Below, piece by piece: positions 33,710 to 47,182 of a stretch of 52,377 bases of DNA (positions are counted from its first letter, which is position 1; each line of letters opens with the position of its first letter). The stretch lies in assembly GCA_025062295.1 (NCBI GenBank), contig JANXAJ010000013.1:1-52377 (forward strand), given 5' to 3'. The stretch comes from Bacteroidia bacterium. Its GTDB lineage: Bacteria; Bacteroidota; Bacteroidia; SpSt-205. Made by a program: the position numbers and the translations under genes. The notes beneath the pieces are model-generated. The model saw only the letters and a list, made by a program, of their open reading frames with translations, did not search any database and was not told where the DNA came from.

Positions 33710-35578
33710 TCAGCCCAGTCCCCATTCTCGAGCAAAGCGCTTGAAGGTGTAGAGGTTCCAAAGGAGTTTGCGGTAGTTTGCCTGTCGGTTTTGATGTTTA
33801 TCCCATAATCGACGAAGGACTTCAGGACGGAACCAGGGGTCTGGACGCAGCAGTTCAGCTGCTATCGGTTTGCGAAGCTCTTCTCGAAGCCACCGTGAAA
33901 GCGGCACCCCAAATCCTTTTTTTGGACGGTGCAAAACCTCCGAGGGCAAGCGCCCTTCCATCAGCTTCTTGAGAAGATATTTCGTCTGCCCTCCCCGACG
34001 ACGATAGGAAAGGGGAAGGGAAGCTAAAAACGAAACCACCTGCTTATCTAAAAGAGGAGCTCGCACCTCCAGCGCATTATACATGCTGGCGCGATCTACC
34101 TTGACGAGAATATCGTCTTGAAGGTAGGTCTTATAGTAGATATACGCAGTAGAAGCATACTCGGGAGCGCTTTGAGGAACTCTTTTGAGGTAGCGCTGCA
34201 GCCATGTGCGGAGGAATGACGTAGCCTCTTTGGCATATTCAGGTGTGAGAAGGGTAGGAAGCTCTTCAGGGAGAAACGAGGCAAGCCAACGGGTATGCCT
34301 CTCTTCTATTGGTCCAGTAAAGCCTCTCAAAAATTGACGAACCTTGAAATCTAAGGCGATATTTTCGTCACTAGGAGGCAAGATCGCCTCAGCTACTGCT
34401 GTGAGTGAAGCTGCAGCAGAGGCTGACAGCCATTCAAAAAGCCAGGCATATCGGTCAGCAAGAAAGGTCGGATATCCCGCCTGCAGCTCATCTCCTCCAT
34501 CCCCTCCAAGAGCTACAATTACGCGCTGACGGGCAAACTGAGACAAAAAATAAGTCGGTAGAATGGAAGCGTCCGCAAATGGCTCATCCATGAGGGGAAA
34601 AACCTCCTCCACCAATTCTAATGCCTTTTGAGGGGTCAAGATAGAGGTATGATGGTCAGTGCCCAGCTTCTGGGCTACTCTTAAAGCATAATCCCTCTCA
34701 TCGTAGCTCTCTTCCGTAAATCCTATAGAGAAAGTAAGAATAGGGACTTCTCGTTGCTGCTGGGCATACCAAGCAACAGTAGAGCTGTCAATCCCTCCAC
34801 TCAGGAAGACCCCCACAGGTACATCAGCTATCAGTCGTAGCCTCACTGCCTCCATAAGGAGGTTATCTAGCATGCGGACCGCTTCCTCTATGGGCGGAGC
34901 CTCTTCCGATGGAAAGGGAGGCTCCCAATAGGACTGATATTCTACAAGCTCTTTCTCTCGAACAATCATGTAATGTCCCCCCTCCAGCTTGAAAATTCCC
35001 TCTCCAATCGCATACGGAGTAGGAACATAATCTAGAATAAGATAGGCATGCAGAGCTGGCACAGAGAGCCGACGAGCAATCCGAGGATGCTGCCACAGCG
35101 CCTTGATTTCCGAAGCAAACGCAAAAAGTCCATTCTGAAAGGTGTAATAGAGAGGCTTTTTACCCATCGGGTCTCTTGCTAAAAAGAAGGCTTTCTCTAC
35201 CCTATCATAAATTGCAAAAGCAAACATCCCTCGCAGCTGATCCAAACACCGCTTGCCCCATCGGATATAAGACTGAAGAAGCACCTCCGTATCCGAGGTC
35301 GTCCGAAAAATGTACCCTTCGCGCTCTAAAAGAGAACGTAATTCTTGAAAATTATAGATCTCTCCATTGAAGACAATTGCATACCGCCCATCTTCTGAAA
35401 AAAAGGGCTGATGACTGCGAGGATCAAGGTCTAAGATGCTGAGTCGAGCATGGGCCAGAACCACCTCGTCTTCTCTCCACACTCCATGATAATCTGGACC
35501 ACGATAACCGATTGCCTTAATCATCTGCCAGCCCACTTTTTCATCACCCTGCCCCCAAAAGCCAGCTATACCACACAT
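33710..35578 (-). CDS. asnB: asparagine synthetase (glutamine-hydrolysing), copy 1
   Basis: A 622-residue enzyme that makes asparagine from aspartate, ATP and glutamine-derived ammonia. An N-terminal class II glutaminase starts MCGIAGFWG with nucleophile Cys2, with RGPDYHG, LSILDLDPRSHQP and VFNGEIYNF. The synthetase domain has the PP-loop GVFLSGGIDSSTVAW and LGGDGGDELQAGYP, and KVDRASMYNALEVRAPLLD. It starts 4 bases after a glycosyltransferase gene on the same strand, and a TGATTTTG box ends 7 bases before the ATG. A glycan-related amidotransfer role is possible, since such AsnB homologues occur in polysaccharide loci. A second copy is at 45371. Confidence 0.92.
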   Translation of the reverse strand: MCGIAGFWGQGDEKVGWQMIKAIGYRGPDYHGVWREDEVVLAHARLSILDLDPRSHQPFFSEDGRYAIVFNGEIYNFQELRSLLEREGYIFRTTSDTEVLLQSYIRWGKRCLDQLRGMFAFAIYDRVEKAFFLARDPMGKKPLYYTFQNGLFAFASEIKALWQHPRIARRLSVPALHAYLILDYVPTPYAIGEGIFKLEGGHYMIVREKELVEYQSYWEPPFPSEEAPPIEEAVRMLDNLLMEAVRLRLIADVPVGVFLSGGIDSSTVAWYAQQQREVPILTFSIGFTEESYDERDYALRVAQKLGTDHHTSILTPQKALELVEEVFPLMDEPFADASILPTYFLSQFARQRVIVALGGDGGDELQAGYPTFLADRYAWLFEWLSASAAASLTAVAEAILPPSDENIALDFKVRQFLRGFTGPIEERHTRWLASFLPEELPTLLTPEYAKEATSFLRTWLQRYLKRVPQSAPEYASTAYIYYKTYLQDDILVKVDRASMYNALEVRAPLLDKQVVSFLASLPLSYRRRGGQTKYLLKKLMEGRLPSEVLHRPKKGFGVPLSRWLREELRKPIAAELLRPDPWFRPEVLRRLWDKHQNRQANYRKLLWNLYTFKRFAREWGLG

Positions 35579-37421: not shown

Positions 37422-39134
37422 ATGAAGTACCTTGTACTCGGGGTTTGCCTAATTTCCTTGACAGGGCTTCAAGCACAGAATGTCGGGATTGGCACCGCAT
37501 CTCCTTCCCAGAGGCTTCATGTAGCTGGAAATGTGCAGATAGACGGGGCTCTCATGCCAGGAGGGCAAGCGGGAAGTGTAGGTGCCCTTTTATACTCAAA
37601 TGGGAGTAACACTCCTCCTCTATGGCTATCTCCTCCTTCAGATGCCAGCCAAGTTTTGGGGAGTGCAGCCAGTGGCACGAACTTCATCCCTACCTGGACA
37701 AGTGGAAATGGACTTTTCTGGCGTCTGATTGGGAATAGTGGGACTAATGTGTCCAATAACTTCATCGGTACCACTGACAATGTCAGCCTTGCTTTTCGTA
37801 CAAATAATATAGAGCGCATGCGGATTACCACAGACGGGAACGTGGGAATTGGAACCTCAATTCCAGAAGGACGTCTAGATGTGCGCCAGCCTTCAGATAA
37901 TGAAGTAGCCCTATTTACTACCTACGGTGCAGTGAATAGGATTTTTCTACGCAGGGCACAGGGTAGCATAAGCGCCCCCAGTGCTACCAGCGCTTCCGAG
38001 ACGGTGCTCGGTCGCATAGATGCTCAAGGATACAATGGCTCTACGTTTACTTCTGCGGCTCGCATAGAGATGACTACCGATGCTGCTGGCGGTACTAGCA
38101 CCGATATGCCTGGACGGATTACCTTCCATACTACGCCAGATGGCAGTGGCACCCTCGTAGAGCGCATGCGAATCACGAATGCAGGGTACGTAGGAATAGG
38201 CAATTCCAACCCCGACCACTACCTCGTAGTAGGACCAGCCGCTGGAGGTCGCCATTTGGTCATCAATGATATCCCCCAAGCTCGCTGGGGCTTTGCTACA
38301 GGCGGTCATGACTTGGCTGTGCAGAATGATTGGGGCGGCACTTGGACTACTCGGATGATAATCACTGAGATCGGGAATGTAGGCATTGGAACTACTGACC
38401 CCCAAGTCTTGCTGGAAGTTTTCGCCCATCAGACAGGTAACACTGCCATAGGTGGGCGGATTCGGCTCTCAGCTAATGGAGATGGCGGACGCCGAACCTA
38501 TTTAGACTTCGCGCCGTGGCGAGGTCGGCCCGGCGGACCTGCTGCTCAGATCATCGGTGAAGACGATAATAATGCCAGTGCCCATCTCCGGTTCTACACC
38601 GCCCCGCCAGGAAGCGGCGGCAATCCTGCCCCCCAAGAGCGCATGCGCATCCAGTCCACGGGCGAGATATTTGGGCGCTTTAGGCATGTAACGCATCATA
38701 CACTTTACAATAGTGCATGGACAGGTAATCCTGGAAATCGAGTTCTCTGGTTCCCATGTCCTGGAGGGGATGGTTGCGACGACTCTCAAATAGGGGGAAC
38801 AGGTACTCCGGGTTTGAATGATTATAGACAGCAGTGGACAGCCCCTTTTGCGGGGCGGATCGTTAGAGTGGTGATCCGAGCGGGAGCAGATAGCGGCTCT
38901 AATCCTGAGTTCCGGGGCCGGATCTGCCGTTCCTTTAATGGGGTCCACGCCATCATGAGTGATATAGATGGAGCTAATGATAACGACTGGCGCGCCTTTA
39001 ACTGCACTCAGAATAATACCTTCAATAGAGGAGACCGCATAGCTGTAGGATTGGATATGAACTGCACAGGCTGCTATGCAGAGGATACCGCTTATTATGT
39101 GGCGATTATATGGGAATTTGAGGTATGGGACTAA
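37422..39134 (+). CDS. secreted tail-fibre-like repeat protein
   Basis: A 570-residue exported protein with signal peptide MKYLVLGVCLISLTGLQA. The body carries at least four copies of a repeat of the form ERMRIT-x-x-GNVGIGT-x-x-P (NVGIGTASP, NVGIGTSIPEGRLDV, YVGIGNSNPDHYLVV, NVGIGTTDPQVLLEV), the pattern of phage tail-fibre and Bacteroidota surface beta-helix proteins. The C-terminal ~140 residues form a separate Cys-containing module (FPCPGGDGCDD, FRGRICRSFNGV, LDMNCTGCYAEDT) ending in IWEFEVWD. No T9SS sorting domain and no intramolecular chaperone are seen. Its codons are richer in C/G at third positions than the neighbours'. Probably a surface fibre. Confidence 0.8.
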   Translation: MKYLVLGVCLISLTGLQAQNVGIGTASPSQRLHVAGNVQIDGALMPGGQAGSVGALLYSNGSNTPPLWLSPPSDASQVLGSAASGTNFIPTWTSGNGLFWRLIGNSGTNVSNNFIGTTDNVSLAFRTNNIERMRITTDGNVGIGTSIPEGRLDVRQPSDNEVALFTTYGAVNRIFLRRAQGSISAPSATSASETVLGRIDAQGYNGSTFTSAARIEMTTDAAGGTSTDMPGRITFHTTPDGSGTLVERMRITNAGYVGIGNSNPDHYLVVGPAAGGRHLVINDIPQARWGFATGGHDLAVQNDWGGTWTTRMIITEIGNVGIGTTDPQVLLEVFAHQTGNTAIGGRIRLSANGDGGRRTYLDFAPWRGRPGGPAAQIIGEDDNNASAHLRFYTAPPGSGGNPAPQERMRIQSTGEIFGRFRHVTHHTLYNSAWTGNPGNRVLWFPCPGGDGCDDSQIGGTGTPGLNDYRQQWTAPFAGRIVRVVIRAGADSGSNPEFRGRICRSFNGVHAIMSDIDGANDNDWRAFNCTQNNTFNRGDRIAVGLDMNCTGCYAEDTAYYVAIIWEFEVWD

Positions 39135-39493: not shown

Positions 39494-40864
39494 TCACACT
39501 CGCAAAAGGGCGACCTGCTCGCCTACATCATATACAGGGCTTTTCTCAGCCGCTAAGAGGATACTACTAGCAAGCGCTGAGCGATATCCACCACCACAAT
39601 AGACGGCGACGGGTTTATCCGTCGGCAGCTCATGGAGTCGCTCACGCAGCTCCGCTAATCGAATCCGGAAAGCATGAGGAATAAGAGGATCAGTACCTAT
39701 CTCATCTGGGTCTCGGACATCCAGCACAGTATAGTTCCGACCATCCTCTCGCAATTTCAGCACCTCTTCCACAGGCATAAGCTGAGGTCCATCTTGATTA
39801 GCATATTCTACACCGATAAAGACACCCCTCAGGTTCGCCTCATATCCAATTGCTAAAACCTGATCAATCACTGACTCATAAGCTGCCTGGGAGCCGACCA
39901 CCAAGTAATACGGTTCATTTGGATCAATTATTGTACCGAGCCATGTGGCTAAGCTTTTGCTGAGAGGGATATTAAGAGCGCCTTTCAAATGTCCTCGGCG
40001 GAAAATATGGGCAGCTCGCACATCCACTACAAGGGCACTCGCTTCTATTTGAGCGGCAGATTCTACTGTGAGTGCCCCTAAAATTCTGATTGAGCGGAGG
40101 GCCTCTTCATAACCTGTCGGTCCCCGCCGATTCACCTCTACGCTGTGGGGGAAGTACTTAGGGACGTGGGGTTGCCCACTAACCAAGGCTTCCACAAAGG
40201 TGGATTCATCCACTGTATGAGCCAGAATAACTGCCCAATTTTCTAACCGTTCTACACCGATACTGCTGGCATTGAGCTGCTTGAGAGCCTTACCGCAGAG
40301 AGTTCCAGCCCCATGCGCTGGATACACGAGTGTTGTCGGCTTGAGAATCTGAAACATCCGACGCAGACTGTGATACATATCCCGAGCTTGGTCTTCCCGC
40401 TGCTTTTGAATATTGCCCGCTTTCGCTCGCAGGTCAGCTCGCCCTACATCTCCTATAAAAAGCCAATCTCCCGTAAAAGCGGCATACTCTCGCCCTTCTT
40501 CGTCATACAAAAGGTAAGTGAGGCTATCAGGAGAATGGCCAGGCGTTAGATAAGCTCTGAGAATCGCTCGTCCAACCTTGATTTCATCTCCATCTTTGAG
40601 CCCCTCATAAGGCACAGCCAAGCCAATAAGTTCACTGGCATACACTCGAGCTCCTGTTCGCTGAGCAATAGCCCAGTAGCTACTTACGAAGTCTGCATGA
40701 GGATGGGTCAGACAGGAGGCTACAATTCGGGCATTGAGTGCTTCTGCCAGCTCTAAATAGGGCCTTTCATTCCGACTAGGATCAATCACAGCCATTTCGC
40801 CATCACTGACGATGGCATAGCTGTACTGAGACAGAGGCTCGTCAAAAAACTGCTTGACAATCAT
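39494..40864 (-). CDS. MBL-fold persulfide dioxygenase / double rhodanese fusion (CstB-like)
   Basis: A 456-residue sulfur enzyme in the order MBL domain (~1-245), rhodanese-like (~255-350), rhodanese (~360-456). The MBL part has THPHADF (His54, His56, Asp58), PGHSPDSLTYLL, FTGDWLFIGDVGR and YPAHGAGTLCG. This matches non-haem iron persulfide dioxygenases that use two His and one Asp. The first rhodanese has lost its Cys (YLVVGSQAAYES) and is probably structural; the second keeps the active loop VYCGGGYRS (Cys423). This is the CstB domain order, known to turn persulfide plus sulfite into thiosulfate. It is the last of three rhodanese-bearing genes on one transcript. Confidence 0.9.
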   Translation of the reverse strand: MIVKQFFDEPLSQYSYAIVSDGEMAVIDPSRNERPYLELAEALNARIVASCLTHPHADFVSSYWAIAQRTGARVYASELIGLAVPYEGLKDGDEIKVGRAILRAYLTPGHSPDSLTYLLYDEEGREYAAFTGDWLFIGDVGRADLRAKAGNIQKQREDQARDMYHSLRRMFQILKPTTLVYPAHGAGTLCGKALKQLNASSIGVERLENWAVILAHTVDESTFVEALVSGQPHVPKYFPHSVEVNRRGPTGYEEALRSIRILGALTVESAAQIEASALVVDVRAAHIFRRGHLKGALNIPLSKSLATWLGTIIDPNEPYYLVVGSQAAYESVIDQVLAIGYEANLRGVFIGVEYANQDGPQLMPVEEVLKLREDGRNYTVLDVRDPDEIGTDPLIPHAFRIRLAELRERLHELPTDKPVAVYCGGGYRSALASSILLAAEKSPVYDVGEQVALLRV

Positions 40865-40870
40865 AGGCGT

Positions 40871-41182
40871 TTACCCCCTTTCATATTCAAATCCAGCTTG
40901 AATAAGCTCTCCTATCCCTCCCGCATTATATGCCTCAAAGCCTCTCTGTCGCATAAAGGCAGCTGCCGCTTGGCTTCTGCCCCCTGAGGCACAGAAGAGA
41001 ATGTAGAACTTATTCTTCTCAAGCTTCTCTACTTGGCGATCAAAGCCATTGTAGAAGTCCACATTTTGAGAACCTTTGATACGCAGCTGGCGATACTCAC
41101 CAGGCGTGCGGACATCTAATAAAACCACAGACTGCGGCTGTCTGCGGTACTTTTCCAAGGCTTCACTCGCTGTGATCTTCAT
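40871..41182 (-). CDS. cytoplasmic single-domain rhodanese
   Basis: A 103-residue sulfurtransferase with VVLLDVRTPGEYRQLRIKGS and the active loop FCASGGRS (Cys64). It has no signal peptide. It probably carries persulfide sulfur to or from the neighbouring CstB-like enzyme. Its start overlaps the upstream rhodanese gene by 20 bases and its stop lies 6 bases before the MBL-rhodanese start. Confidence 0.92.
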   Translation of the reverse strand: MKITASEALEKYRRQPQSVVLLDVRTPGEYRQLRIKGSQNVDFYNGFDRQVEKLEKNKFYILFCASGGRSQAAAAFMRQRGFEAYNAGGIGELIQAGFEYERG

Positions 41183-41594
41183 ATCCCTTTTTTATTGGAA
41201 ATCCAACTTGAGCTAAACTACGAAGTCCTCCTATACTATAGGCAGTCAAGCCCCGCTCACGCATAATTTGAGCCGCCGCTTTACTGCGATTGCCAGAAGC
41301 ACAATAGAGAAAGTATATCTTTTCCTTCGGCAGCTCATTGACCTTGTTTTCAAAGTCAGAATAAAAGTCTATATTTTTAGCTCCTTTCACATGAGACTCA
41401 TAGTATTCCTCCGGCGTCCTCACATCCACTATCGCTACCCGATTGCCTTCCTTTTTCCATCGCTGATATGCTTCTGAGGGCTGAAGGATGATGGGCTCCT
41501 GAGTAGTACGAAAAATAGACCCTCCTCCCATCAGCCCTAATACTCCCAGAGCCAGTATTAGCACAGATGATACTATTACAACATTGTGTCTCAT
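41163..41594 (-). CDS. membrane-anchored periplasmic rhodanese
   Basis: A 143-residue protein whose N terminus (MRHNVVIVSSVLILALGVLGL) is a signal anchor, followed by a rhodanese domain with VAIVDVRTPEEYYESHVKGA and the active loop LYCASGNRS. It is a paralogue of the next gene, but exported. First gene of the sulfur cluster. ATG 41594 is chosen since it gives a compact signal; an ATG at 41612 would add six residues. No clean TAnnTTTG box is visible upstream. Confidence 0.88.
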   Translation of the reverse strand: MRHNVVIVSSVLILALGVLGLMGGGSIFRTTQEPIILQPSEAYQRWKKEGNRVAIVDVRTPEEYYESHVKGAKNIDFYSDFENKVNELPKEKIYFLYCASGNRSKAAAQIMRERGLTAYSIGGLRSLAQVGFPIKKGYEDHSE

Positions 41595-41734
41595 AACCAG
41601 AGCATAGAACATAAATTCATATCAAAAAAGTTCCACGCCTACCCCCACCGATGTCTGCACTATGGAGAAGAGAGATGTAGAGTCCGCCTTTCTCAGCAAA
41701 AGCCAGCGGTACTTCCTTACAAATGAGAGGCGAC

Positions 41735-44700
41735 TCAGTCTATTGGCTCTGTCGGTACTTGGAGTCCTACCAGAAGCACATCATCCACTTGAGGAAGCTG
41801 ACGGGGCTCTCGCCATCTCACAAGGGTTTCTTGGAGTCTTTCTCGCTGCTTTTCAGCAGGTAGATGACAGAGCTCAGCTAAAAGAGCTCGGAAGCGTTTA
41901 GACCCAAATCGCCGTCCTTCTTCGCCGCCAAGCTGGTCTGTGTAACCGTCGGTGCTGAAGTATAACCAGTCCCCCTTCTCCAGTCTCAGGCTGTGAGTCG
42001 TAAAGCTCACCCCTCGCAGAGCGGGGATTTCACTCAGTCCTACAGGAAGAGGATCTTTCGGTAATTCTGTTGGCTCTCCATTTCGCACAAGCCAAAATGA
42101 GCGTCTTGCAGCCGCATATTCCATCTGCCATACACTCTCTACTTGATAAAACCGACACAATACCCCCTCGAAACCGTCTTTCATCTCGTCTCCTGCCGCA
42201 GGATTGAGCATTCTAATGATTTGAGCTGATAAGGTATCCAAGAGAACCCCTGGCGAGGCTTGGGGATTTTCCTTAACCACTCGCTCTAAAAGAGAGAGGG
42301 TAAGCAAGCTTACAAAAGCTCCCGGCACTCCATGCCCCGTACAATCCGCTACAAGCAAGAAAAGCTCTTTACTCCCATCCGACTCATCTCGTGCATAAAG
42401 CCAATAAATATCCCCACTAACAATGTCCCTAGGGAGAAATAGAATGAAGTTATTTGGAAAAAATTGAGAGAGAATAAATGGAGAGGGAAGGAGAGCATTT
42501 TGAATGCGTTGAGCATAAATGAGGCTATCCACGAGGTTTTGTCTTTGGGTCTCTATTAGGTCGCGTTGAGCTGCAAGTTCTTGATTAGCAGCAATAAGGG
42601 CTTCATTTTGAGCTTGAATAGTGGAGACAGCTTTTTTGACCTCTTCTTGAAGCTTGGCAGCTTGGCGACGCAGCGCCCTCAACCTATACCGAACATAGAG
42701 AAATATACCGCCTAAAACCAAAAGCCCATATAGCGCGAAAGCCCACGGACTCCGCCAAGGAGGAGGATTGATTCGGAAGCTCCACTCAGCGGAAGGTCCC
42801 CAGCTGCCGCCTACGGGACGAGCTCGGACCTCTAACACATACCTCCCCTCCGGTAGATGATAAAAGTAAGCCTTCCCTTCGCGACTCGGACGACTCCACT
42901 GCTCCCTGTAGCCCCTCAGGCGATATTGGTATTCCACATCAGGCAATTCCAAAAGACCTTGAACCAGCGAAAAATTGAAAGTCAAATCATATGAAAAATA
43001 GCTGGCCTCGAAAGGTATAAGAGAAATAGAAGGCCAAATGCCTTTGCTTTCTAAGAGCCTGAGACCCGGCTGCTCCATTTTTCCCTCCACGGATGATGTG
43101 CCGAGTTCCATCTTTTCTAAAGAACTCCAACCTTCTGGCACCCAAGGATAAGTCAAATGCCATCTCACTCTCAGGCGCGGCGAAGCTAAGGGGGAACGAG
43201 GCTTTTCCTCATACCAAAGGAGTCCCTCTTGTGTCTGGAAGAGGTAGCCCTGCTTCCCACTCCAGCGAAACCCCATGAGTTTACTCACATTGAGCGGACA
43301 CAGGAGGGATACATACGCCGGCTGGGACGCAACACTTACAGTGATATAGGTCCTGATCTTTACCTGTCTGAAGGCCACATTCCGAGCTAAGAGTCCAAAG
43401 AGTCGGTGTCCTTCGCCTTGCCACCATAGCGTATCTTGACCTCCTATGAAATACAGCATCCTGTCTAAGCCTTGTTCTGGTCCTAAGGCGAAGAGTTCTC
43501 TCTCCATTAGTCCGTTCTGATTCCGATAGACTCTCCAGCAGAGGGCTGAGCGACCTCTCTTTGCAGCTTGCTCACCCCAGAGTCGTCCCTTATTATCTAC
43601 GGTGAGCCCTTCGTATGAACCTTTCTCTACTTCCCAAAGCGTGTCTCCTTGAAGGAGATAGACCCCTGAGTTGCGCACGACCCAGAGCGCGCCATGGACG
43701 CCTTTGGCAATAAACTTTACGTCTTTCCAAGGAAGAGGGCGGTTGCCCTGGTAAAGAATGCTACGGCGCAGCAGCCAAATTTTTCCGTCTTCGGTTTGGC
43801 AAATGGACTCTACACTATCTATAGAGAAAATCTCCCAGCCTACTGCAGAGGCTCGAAGAAGGGGAAAAGGACCTGTAACCCACACTGCCCTTCCAGTTGC
43901 ATCGGGTATGAGCTTGGCTTGAACTGTGCGGAAAGGGAAGCGAAGACGCTCCCATGCTACTCCTCCCCCCCATCTCCACACTTCCCCTTTTTGAGTCAGA
44001 ACCCACAGGGTGTCCCTAATCGTTAGAAAGTCTTGAACTTCGGCTTGTGATGGGAAAGGCACCTTTTCAACAAGGTCATCTCTAAAGACAGCAATAATCT
44101 TTTCAGAGGAGAAGCAGCGTCCCGCCCACAGTTCGCCTGAGAAACCAACACAGATAAGATTTGTGCGAACATCCTCCTTTACTTCAGAGAAGATCCATTG
44201 GCCTGACGAATCCATGGAAAAGCTATGAGTCTTCGTTGTACCTCTAATGCTATTATGGGCACTGATGATAAGCTGGTCTAAATGGTAGGGTGCAGCTTCA
44301 CCTGCATACCAAAGATTTCCATCGCTGTACACAAATGTCCCCCTATCTGAAGTAAAAATGGCTTTATTTTTCCCCTCCCCTGCTACGACCGAAGTGAATT
44401 GATTCCATAGGGGACGAGTCGCATAGAGGGCTTGCACCTTCCCTGCCCGCCACAAGAGAAGGCCTTGTCCTTTATTATGATCAAACGCAATTAACAAGGT
44501 GTCACCTATCCATCCTATAGGTAAGACTCGAAAGGAAGGAAAAACAAGCGCAAAAGCAGAGTCCTTTGTGTACCAAAAGAGTCTATCCTTCCATGCCTCC
44601 GCACTAATGAATCCCCCTGAAGGCGCCATGAAAGCTCTCTCAGAAGGAGAGAGAGCCGACTTCGCATACCAGTAAAAGCCGTCATAAAAGAGAAGGGTAT

Positions 44701-45322
44701 CCTTAAGCACCACCCATACCCCGCTCGTATCCTCATATATGGAAGGAGCTGTAGAAAGTTGTATCTCCTCTGGGAGAGAAATCGTCTCTATCCGCTCTCC
44801 ATCCCATCGCATGATAGAAGTGGAAGCACTCGTCCAGAGATCCCCATACCGTCCTACCGTCATGTAGCCGAATTCTCGCCCAAACCACGACCATGCCTTC
44901 ATAAGCCCTCTTGAATCCGCGTTCGCTTGCGCTACGAAAGAGATCGGATGGAACTCCACCGAATATTTGCTCCACCTCTTTTGAAAGGGATGAGGATAAG
45001 ACTCAATAATTACTGTAGCGTATGTAGGAATAAGAGAGATGATTTTTTGTTTTGGAGGGTATGGTATCAAGATTTTTTCGCTATTGAGAGGAAGAATCCT
45101 CTCAGCTTGACTCCACTCTGGAAGGAATGAGGGTGCCTTCTCAAAGCGGGAAAGGAGGCGAGTATCATGCACAGGCGCCTCATAAGATTCTACTTCAATC
45201 TTTGACAAATAGTCAAGAAAATCAGAGACAAAAACGCCGATCACCCAGCCAAAAAAAAGAAGGATTAATCCAACAATAGAAAGGCTAATTATTAGCACTT
45301 TTCGCCAGGGAGAGCGACGCAT
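41735..45322 (-). CDS. giant propeller-type SpoIIE serine phosphatase
   Basis: A 1195-residue membrane signalling protein. An N-terminal helix (VLIISLSIVGLILLFFGWVI) is followed by a large propeller region (~130-720), then a Y_Y_Y domain (~790-875, VEYQYRLRGYREQWSRP, LPEGRYVLEVRARPVG), a second membrane helix (FALYGLLVLGGIFLYVRY) and a coiled coil with the linker LVDSLIYAQRIQNALLP. A PP2C/SpoIIE domain ends it: FLPRDIVSGDIYWLY, VADCTGHGVPGAFVSLL, YFSTDGYTDQLGG. The start is ATG 45322 because TACTTTTG ends 4 bases before it. This is the sensor layout of the histidine kinase at 176-2986 with a phosphatase output. It probably acts on STAS proteins such as that at 49028. Confidence 0.9.
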   Translation of the reverse strand: MRRSPWRKVLIISLSIVGLILLFFGWVIGVFVSDFLDYLSKIEVESYEAPVHDTRLLSRFEKAPSFLPEWSQAERILPLNSEKILIPYPPKQKIISLIPTYATVIIESYPHPFQKRWSKYSVEFHPISFVAQANADSRGLMKAWSWFGREFGYMTVGRYGDLWTSASTSIMRWDGERIETISLPEEIQLSTAPSIYEDTSGVWVVLKDTLLFYDGFYWYAKSALSPSERAFMAPSGGFISAEAWKDRLFWYTKDSAFALVFPSFRVLPIGWIGDTLLIAFDHNKGQGLLLWRAGKVQALYATRPLWNQFTSVVAGEGKNKAIFTSDRGTFVYSDGNLWYAGEAAPYHLDQLIISAHNSIRGTTKTHSFSMDSSGQWIFSEVKEDVRTNLICVGFSGELWAGRCFSSEKIIAVFRDDLVEKVPFPSQAEVQDFLTIRDTLWVLTQKGEVWRWGGGVAWERLRFPFRTVQAKLIPDATGRAVWVTGPFPLLRASAVGWEIFSIDSVESICQTEDGKIWLLRRSILYQGNRPLPWKDVKFIAKGVHGALWVVRNSGVYLLQGDTLWEVEKGSYEGLTVDNKGRLWGEQAAKRGRSALCWRVYRNQNGLMERELFALGPEQGLDRMLYFIGGQDTLWWQGEGHRLFGLLARNVAFRQVKIRTYITVSVASQPAYVSLLCPLNVSKLMGFRWSGKQGYLFQTQEGLLWYEEKPRSPLASPRLRVRWHLTYPWVPEGWSSLEKMELGTSSVEGKMEQPGLRLLESKGIWPSISLIPFEASYFSYDLTFNFSLVQGLLELPDVEYQYRLRGYREQWSRPSREGKAYFYHLPEGRYVLEVRARPVGGSWGPSAEWSFRINPPPWRSPWAFALYGLLVLGGIFLYVRYRLRALRRQAAKLQEEVKKAVSTIQAQNEALIAANQELAAQRDLIETQRQNLVDSLIYAQRIQNALLPSPFILSQFFPNNFILFLPRDIVSGDIYWLYARDESDGSKELFLLVADCTGHGVPGAFVSLLTLSLLERVVKENPQASPGVLLDTLSAQIIRMLNPAAGDEMKDGFEGVLCRFYQVESVWQMEYAAARRSFWLVRNGEPTELPKDPLPVGLSEIPALRGVSFTTHSLRLEKGDWLYFSTDGYTDQLGGEEGRRFGSKRFRALLAELCHLPAEKQRERLQETLVRWREPRQLPQVDDVLLVGLQVPTEPID

Positions 45323-45326
45323 AAAG

Positions 45327-45334
45327 CAAAAGTA
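45327..45334 (-). promoter_or_regulatory. -7 promoter box TACTTTTG
   Basis: A perfect TAnnTTTG box, 4 bases before the ATG at 45322; it selects that start over an in-frame one at 45343. Confidence 0.75.
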
Positions 45335-45370
45335 GATATTCACTTCAGGAGAGGAAAAGAAGCCTCTCTA

Positions 45371-47182
45371 TTATACCTGGGTGGCTCCAAGCTGAGCAAG
45401 CAGCCAAAGCCGCATGCCCAGGTGTTTGTCTCCTCTCTCAAATCGCTCCCACAGCTTACGTATTCGGAGAGGATGAAAGCCGTACCTCTGATAAAGAAGC
45501 CCTGGGTCAGCATAGGTACGAGCCCATTCAGAGAGGGGACCTGAGAGCCACTCCCCTACGGGAATGCCAAATCCCCATTTTCGCCGTTCAACGAGGGCAG
45601 GAGGAAGATATTTGCGTAGGATTCGTCGTAAAAGTGGCTTGTACTGGACGGGTGAGCCATCAAGGGGCTTTTTTAGCTTGGAGGGCACTCGCCAAGCCAA
45701 TTCCGCCCACTTTTTATCAAGAAGGGGAACGCGGACTTCTAAGCTATGCTGCATTGAAGCACGGTCTACCTTCGTCAGAAGATCATCGGGGAGGTAGTGG
45801 AGGAAATCCCATGCCGCTTGACTCTCTGTCAGAGAAGAGGGAAGGACATAAGATGTGCGCCATGGCCGACTTTGCCAGGGAAGGAGCTTCTCCACTTCTG
45901 CCCAACTAAATGCGTACTGCTCTTGAGAAAAGATGTGCTCGTGGATGCCCTCTGAAGGGAGTCGGAGAAGGTCTTTCAGTCGTCGATGAGGAGGAGAAGG
46001 AGCATACGCAAAGAGAGGCGCGCTCAGCCGCCACAGGAGCTTGAAGCGAGAGAGACGATGTGTCCATCGGTAGCGCCCGTAGCCCCAATATAACTCATCC
46101 CCACCATCTCCTGCTAATACGACCTTCACATAGCGAGCCGCCAGCCGAGAAACTAAATAAGTGGGAAGCGCAGAGGTATCCCCAAAAGGCTCATCATACC
46201 ACTGGGACATCTCTGGCAAGAGTGCCGCAGCCTCCTCCCCCTCTAATACCTCCCATTCAAGAGAAAGTCCCAAATGCTGAGCTACAGCCTGAGCATACGG
46301 CAGTTCATTATGGAGAGAGTCGCGAAATCCAATACAAAATGCCTGGGGGGTATATCCCTCTGCTACTGCCATTGCCGCCACCAGTGAAGAATCAGTGCCA
46401 CCACTTAGAAAAATGCCGAGAGGCACATCACTCACTAAGTGAGCTCGCACCGCTCGCCTTAGCTCCCTCTCCACCTGTCCCTCTATCTCCTCAGGTGAAG
46501 TAGTGAGCTTGGGCTGCTGCCACAATCCTTGCCGATCATAATAAGTCTCTTGAAAGTACCCCCTCGGATGAATGCACCATTTCTCTCCGGGGAGCACCTT
46601 GTATATCCCCTCGTAAAAGCTCAAAGGAGCAGGAATAAATCCAAGATGAAGAAACTCCTTGAGTGCCTCAGCCCGAAGGCGAAGAGAAGGAAGCCAGCGC
46701 TTGAGTACCTTCAGTTCAGAGGCAAAAAAAATCCCCTCAGGCTGAACCGCCACCCATAGAGGCTTGATTCCAAAGGGATCTCTTGCCAAAATTAGCATTT
46801 GCCTCTCCTCATCATACAAGGCGAAAGCAAACATGCCTTCCAGCTTTTGAAGAAAGGCTTCCCCCCACCGCTGATAAGCCCATAAGAGAACTTCAGTGTC
46901 ACTGCGGGTAGAGGGTCTAAATCTCCCTTCCTGAATAAGCTCACGGAAGTTGTAGATCTCCCCGTTATAGACAATCCAGGTAGGTCCGAGGCGAAATGGC
47001 TGATGGGCAGCCTCAGAAAGGTCTAAGATACTCAGGCGAGTGTGAGCAAGTCCAACTCGCTGGTCTGGACTGCGCCAAATCCGAGCTGCATCAGGACCCC
47101 GATGTCGCAGAAGGACTGTCGCTTGCTCTAAAGCAGGCAAGCTCACCGCCCGCCACAGATAGTATCCAGCAATGCCGCACAC
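45371..47182 (-). CDS. asnB: asparagine synthetase (glutamine-hydrolysing), copy 2
   Basis: A 603-residue enzyme starting at GTG 47182 with MCGIAGYYL (nucleophile Cys2), RHRGPDAARIW, LSILDLSEAAHQP, VYNGEIYNF and RSDTEVLLWAY in the glutaminase half. The synthetase half has GIFLSGGTDSSLVAAM, LAGDGGDELYWGYGRY and KVDRASMQHSLEVRVPLLD. It is clearly diverged from copy 1 at 33710 rather than a recent duplicate. It starts 3 bases after the nuoD stop, so it is transcribed with nuoD, an odd pairing. Which copy makes free asparagine cannot be told from sequence. Confidence 0.92.
   Translation of the reverse strand: MCGIAGYYLWRAVSLPALEQATVLLRHRGPDAARIWRSPDQRVGLAHTRLSILDLSEAAHQPFRLGPTWIVYNGEIYNFRELIQEGRFRPSTRSDTEVLLWAYQRWGEAFLQKLEGMFAFALYDEERQMLILARDPFGIKPLWVAVQPEGIFFASELKVLKRWLPSLRLRAEALKEFLHLGFIPAPLSFYEGIYKVLPGEKWCIHPRGYFQETYYDRQGLWQQPKLTTSPEEIEGQVERELRRAVRAHLVSDVPLGIFLSGGTDSSLVAAMAVAEGYTPQAFCIGFRDSLHNELPYAQAVAQHLGLSLEWEVLEGEEAAALLPEMSQWYDEPFGDTSALPTYLVSRLAARYVKVVLAGDGGDELYWGYGRYRWTHRLSRFKLLWRLSAPLFAYAPSPPHRRLKDLLRLPSEGIHEHIFSQEQYAFSWAEVEKLLPWQSRPWRTSYVLPSSLTESQAAWDFLHYLPDDLLTKVDRASMQHSLEVRVPLLDKKWAELAWRVPSKLKKPLDGSPVQYKPLLRRILRKYLPPALVERRKWGFGIPVGEWLSGPLSEWARTYADPGLLYQRYGFHPLRIRKLWERFERGDKHLGMRLWLLAQLGATQV

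Follow-up and report, generated by a model that had tools for sequence, protein, structure and literature searches.

A putative three-gene operon for sulfane-sulfur handling in a Bacteroidia bacterium: a CstB-type fusion with exported and cytoplasmic rhodanese paralogues

Three co-directional open reading frames (ORFs) on the minus strand of a 52,377-nt stretch of Bacteroidia DNA (the window, contig C4 of the 2.05-Mb genome G000, completeness 99.25%) follow each other head to tail and encode an exported single-domain rhodanese (rhExp), then a cytoplasmic single-domain rhodanese (rhCyt) and then a CstB-type MBL-pseudorhodanese-rhodanese fusion. We consider it probable, at roughly 0.6, that they form an operon in which a CstB-type enzyme and two rhodaneses handle sulfane sulfur in an aerobic bacterium, and the most likely function is a detoxification of sulfane sulfur that does not depend on sulfide:quinone reductase (SQR). 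The components are familiar, and the pairing of a CstB-type enzyme with sister rhodaneses on either side of the membrane appears to be modestly new; no description of this arrangement was found in the titles and abstract openings of the open-access literature.

Persulfide dioxygenases are usually discussed downstream of SQR. That the CstB-type block is retained in near-complete genomes with no SQR found implies that persulfide arises there in some other way, and the exported paralogue suggests an origin of the sulfur outside the inner membrane. The triad offers a small model for studying the passage of sulfane sulfur through this membrane.

Gene layout and the two small rhodaneses

An earlier note, made from the letters of the window, had described a cluster of three overlapping or nearly touching rhodanese genes at 39494-41594, and the ORF map, the Pfam searches and the spacings all agree with this description. 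The rhExp gene (41163..41594, minus strand) overlaps the rhCyt gene (40871..41182, minus strand) by 20 bp, and a gap of 6 bp separates the latter from the fusion gene (39494..40864, minus strand). Pfam Rhodanese is matched by all three products, with 53.9 bits for rhExp (active loop CASGNR) and 50.3 bits for rhCyt (active loop CASGGR), and the fusion comprises Lactamase_B and two rhodanese stretches. The three genes are probably co-transcribed as one operon, the presumed promoter region being the intergenic stretch 41613..41734 (minus strand) that lies on the ORF map between them and a SpoIIE-type gene.

This upstream neighbour (41735-45343, minus strand), situated directly 5' of the operon, encodes a protein of 1202 aa with Y_Y_Y and SpoIIE domains according to Pfam, and members of its similarity group are also found near the triad at two other loci (L051 and L052). 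The downstream neighbour (37422-39134, plus strand) is convergent with the operon; its product has an N-terminal signal-like stretch, tail-fibre PHROG matches and no Pfam match. The products of the genes flanking the region at 33710-35578 and 45371-47182 (-) have MCGIAG starts, and we take them to be glutamine-dependent asparagine synthases.

The mechanical ORF of rhExp extends over 41612..41163. The internal ATG at 41594, which the earlier note had chosen as the start, is preferred because a Met stands at the matching place in the ten readable relatives and is followed there by three residues and V/I-A, so the family comparison bears this choice out. From this start the product begins with a strongly hydrophobic signal or anchor, MRHNVVIVSSVLILALGVLGLMGGG, which is devoid of a lipobox. 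An export signal, called like the lipobox by eye and hydropathy and not by a trained predictor, is present in the first rhodanese of all 11 readable family members; seven of them have a lipobox Cys (L046, L047, L048, L049, L051, L053 and L054), and in the remaining four, namely the window copy and those of L050, L052 and G007, the signal lacks a lipobox. The lipobox-bearing proteins may sit at the outer membrane. The combination of such a signal, anchor or lipobox with a CxxxxR rhodanese domain identifies rhExp as a putative exported rhodanese, its location being read from the sequence only. The window copy has the longest branch among the exported copies in the tree and a mean identity to its relatives of 49.4%; its active loop reads CASGNR, in contrast to CASGRR in all ten relatives that are readable. 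The NCBIfam PspE model matched rhExp with 39.7 bits, under the cut-off of 102, and PDB 2jtq was also matched.

There is no room for a signal peptide in rhCyt, since its stop-to-stop frame contains 3 residues before the Met. This reading of the signals supports the earlier proposal that the two small rhodaneses are placed on opposite sides of the membrane. They share 45.5% identity over 101 aa, and the exported and cytoplasmic rhodaneses of the same genome share 46.0-53.5% at nine loci. In a tree of 68 rhodanese domains, which rests on 94 columns, 20 family sequences are united in one joint clade (support 100/98), and this argues for tandem paralogy of the two small rhodaneses; together with the identity it upholds the claim that they are paralogues. 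Within this tree the ten cytoplasmic family copies form a clade (100/99) and the ten exported ones group weakly (75/63). The row of the L052 fusion (L052 fusC) has a false position, on a long branch, because the contig end truncates this fusion. The ten non-family rows nearest to the family rhodaneses are mixed, six of them with an export signal and four without, and the fork is not strong (92/82), so they give only a hint that the cytoplasmic copy may be derived from an exported ancestor.

The CstB-type fusion

The fusion is composed of an MBL domain (approximately residues 1-195), a pseudorhodanese (approximately 262-352) and a C-terminal rhodanese (approximately 362-450) carrying C423xxxxR428. 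Phmmer aligned it end to end with 3tp9 from Alicyclobacillus (253.7 bits) and with 3r2u (165.4 bits), which we take to be the CstB protein of Staphylococcus aureus, and a Foldseek search with the AlphaFold model (mean pLDDT 84.3, built on 12 sequences) placed 3tp9 first (TM 0.87-0.88) and 3r2u next. Together with Pfam, these matches confirm the CstB domain order that had been recognised in the earlier note. The likeness to both proteins covers the full length and includes the dioxygenase motifs, the Cys of the GAGxxCGK loop and the CxxxxR loop; the full-length sequence, the key residues and the predicted fold support the assignment of the fusion to the CstB type.

In the motif columns of 66 aligned fusions, T53, H54, H56, A57, D58, H110, D133, H184, C190, C423 and R428 are found in every sequence that is readable there. 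H54, H110 and D133, present wherever readable, are the predicted metal ligands, and presumably correspond to the His, His and Asp that hold the mononuclear Fe in ETHE1-type enzymes. The linker that follows the MBL domain has a Cys to which we assign a role in CstB-type enzymes; it was matched here to C190 and is present in 66/66 fusions; it falls within residues 185-197, one of the two stretches (the other is 137-150) where the pLDDT of the model is below 50. C423 and R428 are present in 65 of the 66, the remaining sequence being gapped at this place. Residues 320-334 of the window pseudorhodanese, YLVVGSQAAYESVID, are free of Cys.

A tree of 65 fusions (L054 was too short to be included) divides nine family rows and eight class-level rows from 48 other CstB-type rows by a branch of length 1.38 with 100/100 support. 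In contrast to S. aureus CstB and 3tp9, the window fusion thus belongs to a separate subfamily and is tied to two small rhodaneses. As the family fusions are set apart by this long branch, the CstB chemistry is carried over to them by homology. Both subfamilies occur together in four class genomes (G016, G017, G025 and G047).

Conservation in the family and in the class

The earlier note had suggested looking for a conserved gene order, and the order is kept in ten of the 12 family genomes (G000, G002-G006 and G008-G011) while the flanks vary. This count includes G004, where the fusion is cut by the contig end, and G006, where its frame is broken. G007 has the exported rhodanese and a terminal part of the fusion, both of them at contig edges, and in G001 (81% complete) no triad gene was seen. 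In the flanks of the ten triad loci, compared up to about 6 kb and less at contig ends, no other gene group exceeds four ORFs, and some neighbours are common to two or three loci; the overlap filter used in this comparison hid some triad ORFs that were seen in other searches. The spacings within the triad range from -20 to 26 bp at the nine loci measured. The exported copy diverges faster than its partners: its mean identity is 60.9% (36 pairs), compared with 75.9% for the cytoplasmic copy (36 pairs) and 76.7% for the fusion (28 pairs). Nine family relatives carry names; all are MAGs, eight of them labelled Bacteroidia bacterium and the ninth Sphingobacterium sp., and judging from the isolate names we guess that they originate from hot springs. 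In the one-contig genome KatS3mg025 (L054, 6001-7366) the fusion frame is in two pieces, which may be a sequencing error or a real break.

Outside the family, we surveyed 52 CstB-type loci of 40 genomes (39 of the same class and one of the same order) for small rhodaneses within 5 kb. These were found near 21 loci, as 29 ORFs that all lie on the strand of the fusion, and the other 31 loci had none within this distance. About 1.1 would be expected by chance in the 462,750 flanking bases, a rough figure obtained from approximately 332 PF00581 matches in approximately 137 Mb of the 39 class genomes, given that the two models differ and that loci of the same genome are not independent. An exported rhodanese is present at nine of the 52 loci, and at six of these nine there is no cytoplasmic one within 5 kb; both kinds occur at L071, L088 and L100. 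An automatic call of a tenth exported protein, at L086, was rejected on visual inspection, the hydrophobic stretch lying upstream of the likely start. At the eight class-level loci with a fusion of the same subfamily as ours, a cytoplasmic rhodanese is found at four (L066, L067, L070 and L071), an exported one at L071 only, and neither at the remaining four.

Sulfur context, proposed pathway and competing readings

The cst operon of the S. aureus type combines the CstR repressor and SQR with CstB. The present cluster differs in having neither sqr nor CstR nearby, and neither was found in its genome. CsoR/CstR (PF02583) had no match in the 13 genomes G000-G012 (controls matched 6/14), and the same 13 genomes gave no match for YeeE (controls 6/14) or TusA (controls 11/14). 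Our SQR query was a Bacteroidia SQR of the human type (it matches human SQR at E ~1.7e-103), and SQR of other types may escape it. Homologues with 45-46% identity were detected in G003, G005, G007 and G008, none of them on a contig carrying triad genes; the query had no match in G000, G002, G004, G006 (one contig) and G010, each with a completeness of 96% or more, nor in G001, G009 and G011 (81%, 83% and 66% complete). SQR was therefore not found in five of the seven triad-bearing family genomes that are at least 95% complete, and the existence of triad genomes where this query detected no SQR homologue argues that the CstB block is independent of human-type SQR. The earlier remark that no SQR or CsoR lies beside the cluster was right and, by the searches made, holds across the 99.25%-complete genome. 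Within the genus, the human-type SQR has a patchy distribution.

In G000 all ten Pyr_redox_2 matches were inspected for a hidden SQR, and none was recognised as such. Eight are, as we take them, two lipoamide dehydrogenases, thioredoxin reductase, MnmG, SdhA, NadB, alanine dehydrogenase and an Fe-S protein; the two doubtful proteins match solved structures of dihydrolipoyl dehydrogenases and flavin monooxygenases. COX1 is present in 13/13 genomes G000-G012, with two matches in G000 (controls 8/14), and TauE in 13/13 (controls 14/14); the SoxY search matched no control genome. The own genome has five PF00581 matches; four, among them all stand-alone rhodaneses, are located in the cluster, and the fifth is presumably the end of a ThiF/MoeB-like protein.

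In the pathway that we favour, the CstB-type enzyme would oxidise low-molecular-weight persulfides with O2 to sulfite in the cytoplasm, and its rhodanese domain would combine this sulfite with a second sulfane sulfur to give thiosulfate. The cytoplasmic rhCyt would shuttle sulfane sulfur among thiosulfate, polysulfide and thiol carriers, feeding or buffering the CstB-type enzyme, and rhExp would catalyse the same reactions outside the inner membrane, with environmental thiosulfate or polysulfide as substrate; what it forms would enter the cytoplasm solely as a persulfide that diffuses or is transported. We infer the activities of the three products by homology, and the substrates and the direction of flow are likewise putative. 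The pathway is favoured by the full-length CstB match and fold, the conserved catalytic residues, the triad in ten of 12 family genomes, the same-strand small rhodaneses of the class, COX1 in all 13 genomes, the triad genomes with no SQR found, the rhodanese matches of G000 gathered in this cluster and the PspE precedent. Counting against it are the long branch of the own subfamily, the low pLDDT around C190, the 31 class-level loci with no small rhodanese within 5 kb, the single exported rhodanese among the eight class-level loci of the own subfamily, the divergence of the window copy of rhExp and the absence of TusA and YeeE matches.

An inward relay of sulfur from rhExp to the cytoplasm, which the earlier note had put forward, is plausible by analogy. 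E. coli PspE is also an exported single-domain rhodanese, and the published account (PMC10215317) reports that it forms GSSH from thiosulfate in the periplasm and that cytoplasmic sulfane sulfur is raised, by an entry route called unknown there; the rhExp gene differs in lying next to a CstB-type gene and a cytoplasmic paralogue of its own. Cable bacteria, according to published work, have periplasmic and cytoplasmic rhodaneses together with a rhodanese-PDO fusion. These precedents make an inward relay reasonable, and the sequence itself does not fix the direction. As rhExp and rhCyt have no physical contact across the membrane, the relay would need a diffusible or transported persulfide carrier. 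The yrkD-containing 11-gene cluster of Bacillus licheniformis resembles the triad in combining persulfide dioxygenase genes with a rhodanese and possible sulfur carriers; it is described (PMC9918477) with homologues of CstR, TusA and DsrE, with TauE and with a two-component system, whereas the cluster of the window has only three genes, one of which encodes an exported rhodanese.

A more far-reaching version of the proposal seems rather unlikely to us. It would be a minimal SQR-independent two-compartment pathway, in which sulfur from external thiosulfate or polysulfide is captured by an exported rhodanese, in many cases a lipoprotein, and passes the inner membrane as a persulfide, a cytoplasmic paralogue of exported-type descent hands the sulfur to a distinct CstB subfamily, and the same set has been independently assembled elsewhere in Bacteroidia.

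The same enzymes may also work without any relay, rhExp having its own periplasmic job on thiosulfate, cyanide, polysulfide or selenite and sharing the operon for joint induction only. We regard this as a real, though tentative, possibility: it is in line with the missing physical path between the two rhodaneses, with the lipobox in seven of the 11 exported family proteins, with the six of nine exported class-level loci that have no cytoplasmic rhodanese within 5 kb, and with the listed papers that mention a rhodanese-like lipoprotein, which concern tellurite/selenite, Geobacter and nanomaterials. However, the gene order kept in ten of 12 genomes against varying flanks, and the PspE precedent for a product that enters the cytoplasm, speak against it. 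It is quite unlikely, in our estimate, that the flow runs outwards, with sulfite or thiosulfate made by the CstB-type enzyme leaving the cell (e.g., via TauE) and rhExp acting on them outside. The TauE-family gene in all 13 genomes, its location some 1.9 kb beyond the fusion in G011 and the presumed TauE-like proteins that immediately precede the fusion at L017, L018 and L021 count for such an outward arm, but the TauE copy of G000 lies on contig C31, outside the window, and no data fix the direction.

A role in sulfur assimilation, with thiosulfate being cleaved and the sulfite and persulfide fed to biosynthesis, has reportedly been proposed for BpPRF, a PDO-rhodanese fusion of Burkholderia that is a solved relative of the window fusion. 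We give little credence to such a role here, as the BpPRF alignment consists of two separate stretches and leaves out the pseudorhodanese, and the full-length matches are the CstB-type 3tp9 and 3r2u. It is very improbable that the MBL domain is a glyoxalase II-like hydrolase and not a dioxygenase; GSH_gloB is the best NCBIfam match, but its 59.8 bits are far under the cut-off of 200.8, and the CstB-type and ETHE1-type structures rank above glyoxalase II.

The detoxification operon that we prefer has partial counterparts in Bacteroidia at L071, L088 and L100, where a cytoplasmic and an exported rhodanese lie on the same strand near a CstB-type fusion. These loci differ from the triad of the window in that their rhodaneses come after the fusion, not before it, and the cytoplasmic copies belong to a clade other than that of the family, and for the latter reason the two-compartment set may have been assembled more than once. 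At L066, L067 and L071, all of the same subfamily, two cytoplasmic small rhodaneses follow the fusion; two of these loci (read as L017 and L021) presumably also have TauE-like proteins and one (L021) a thioredoxin.
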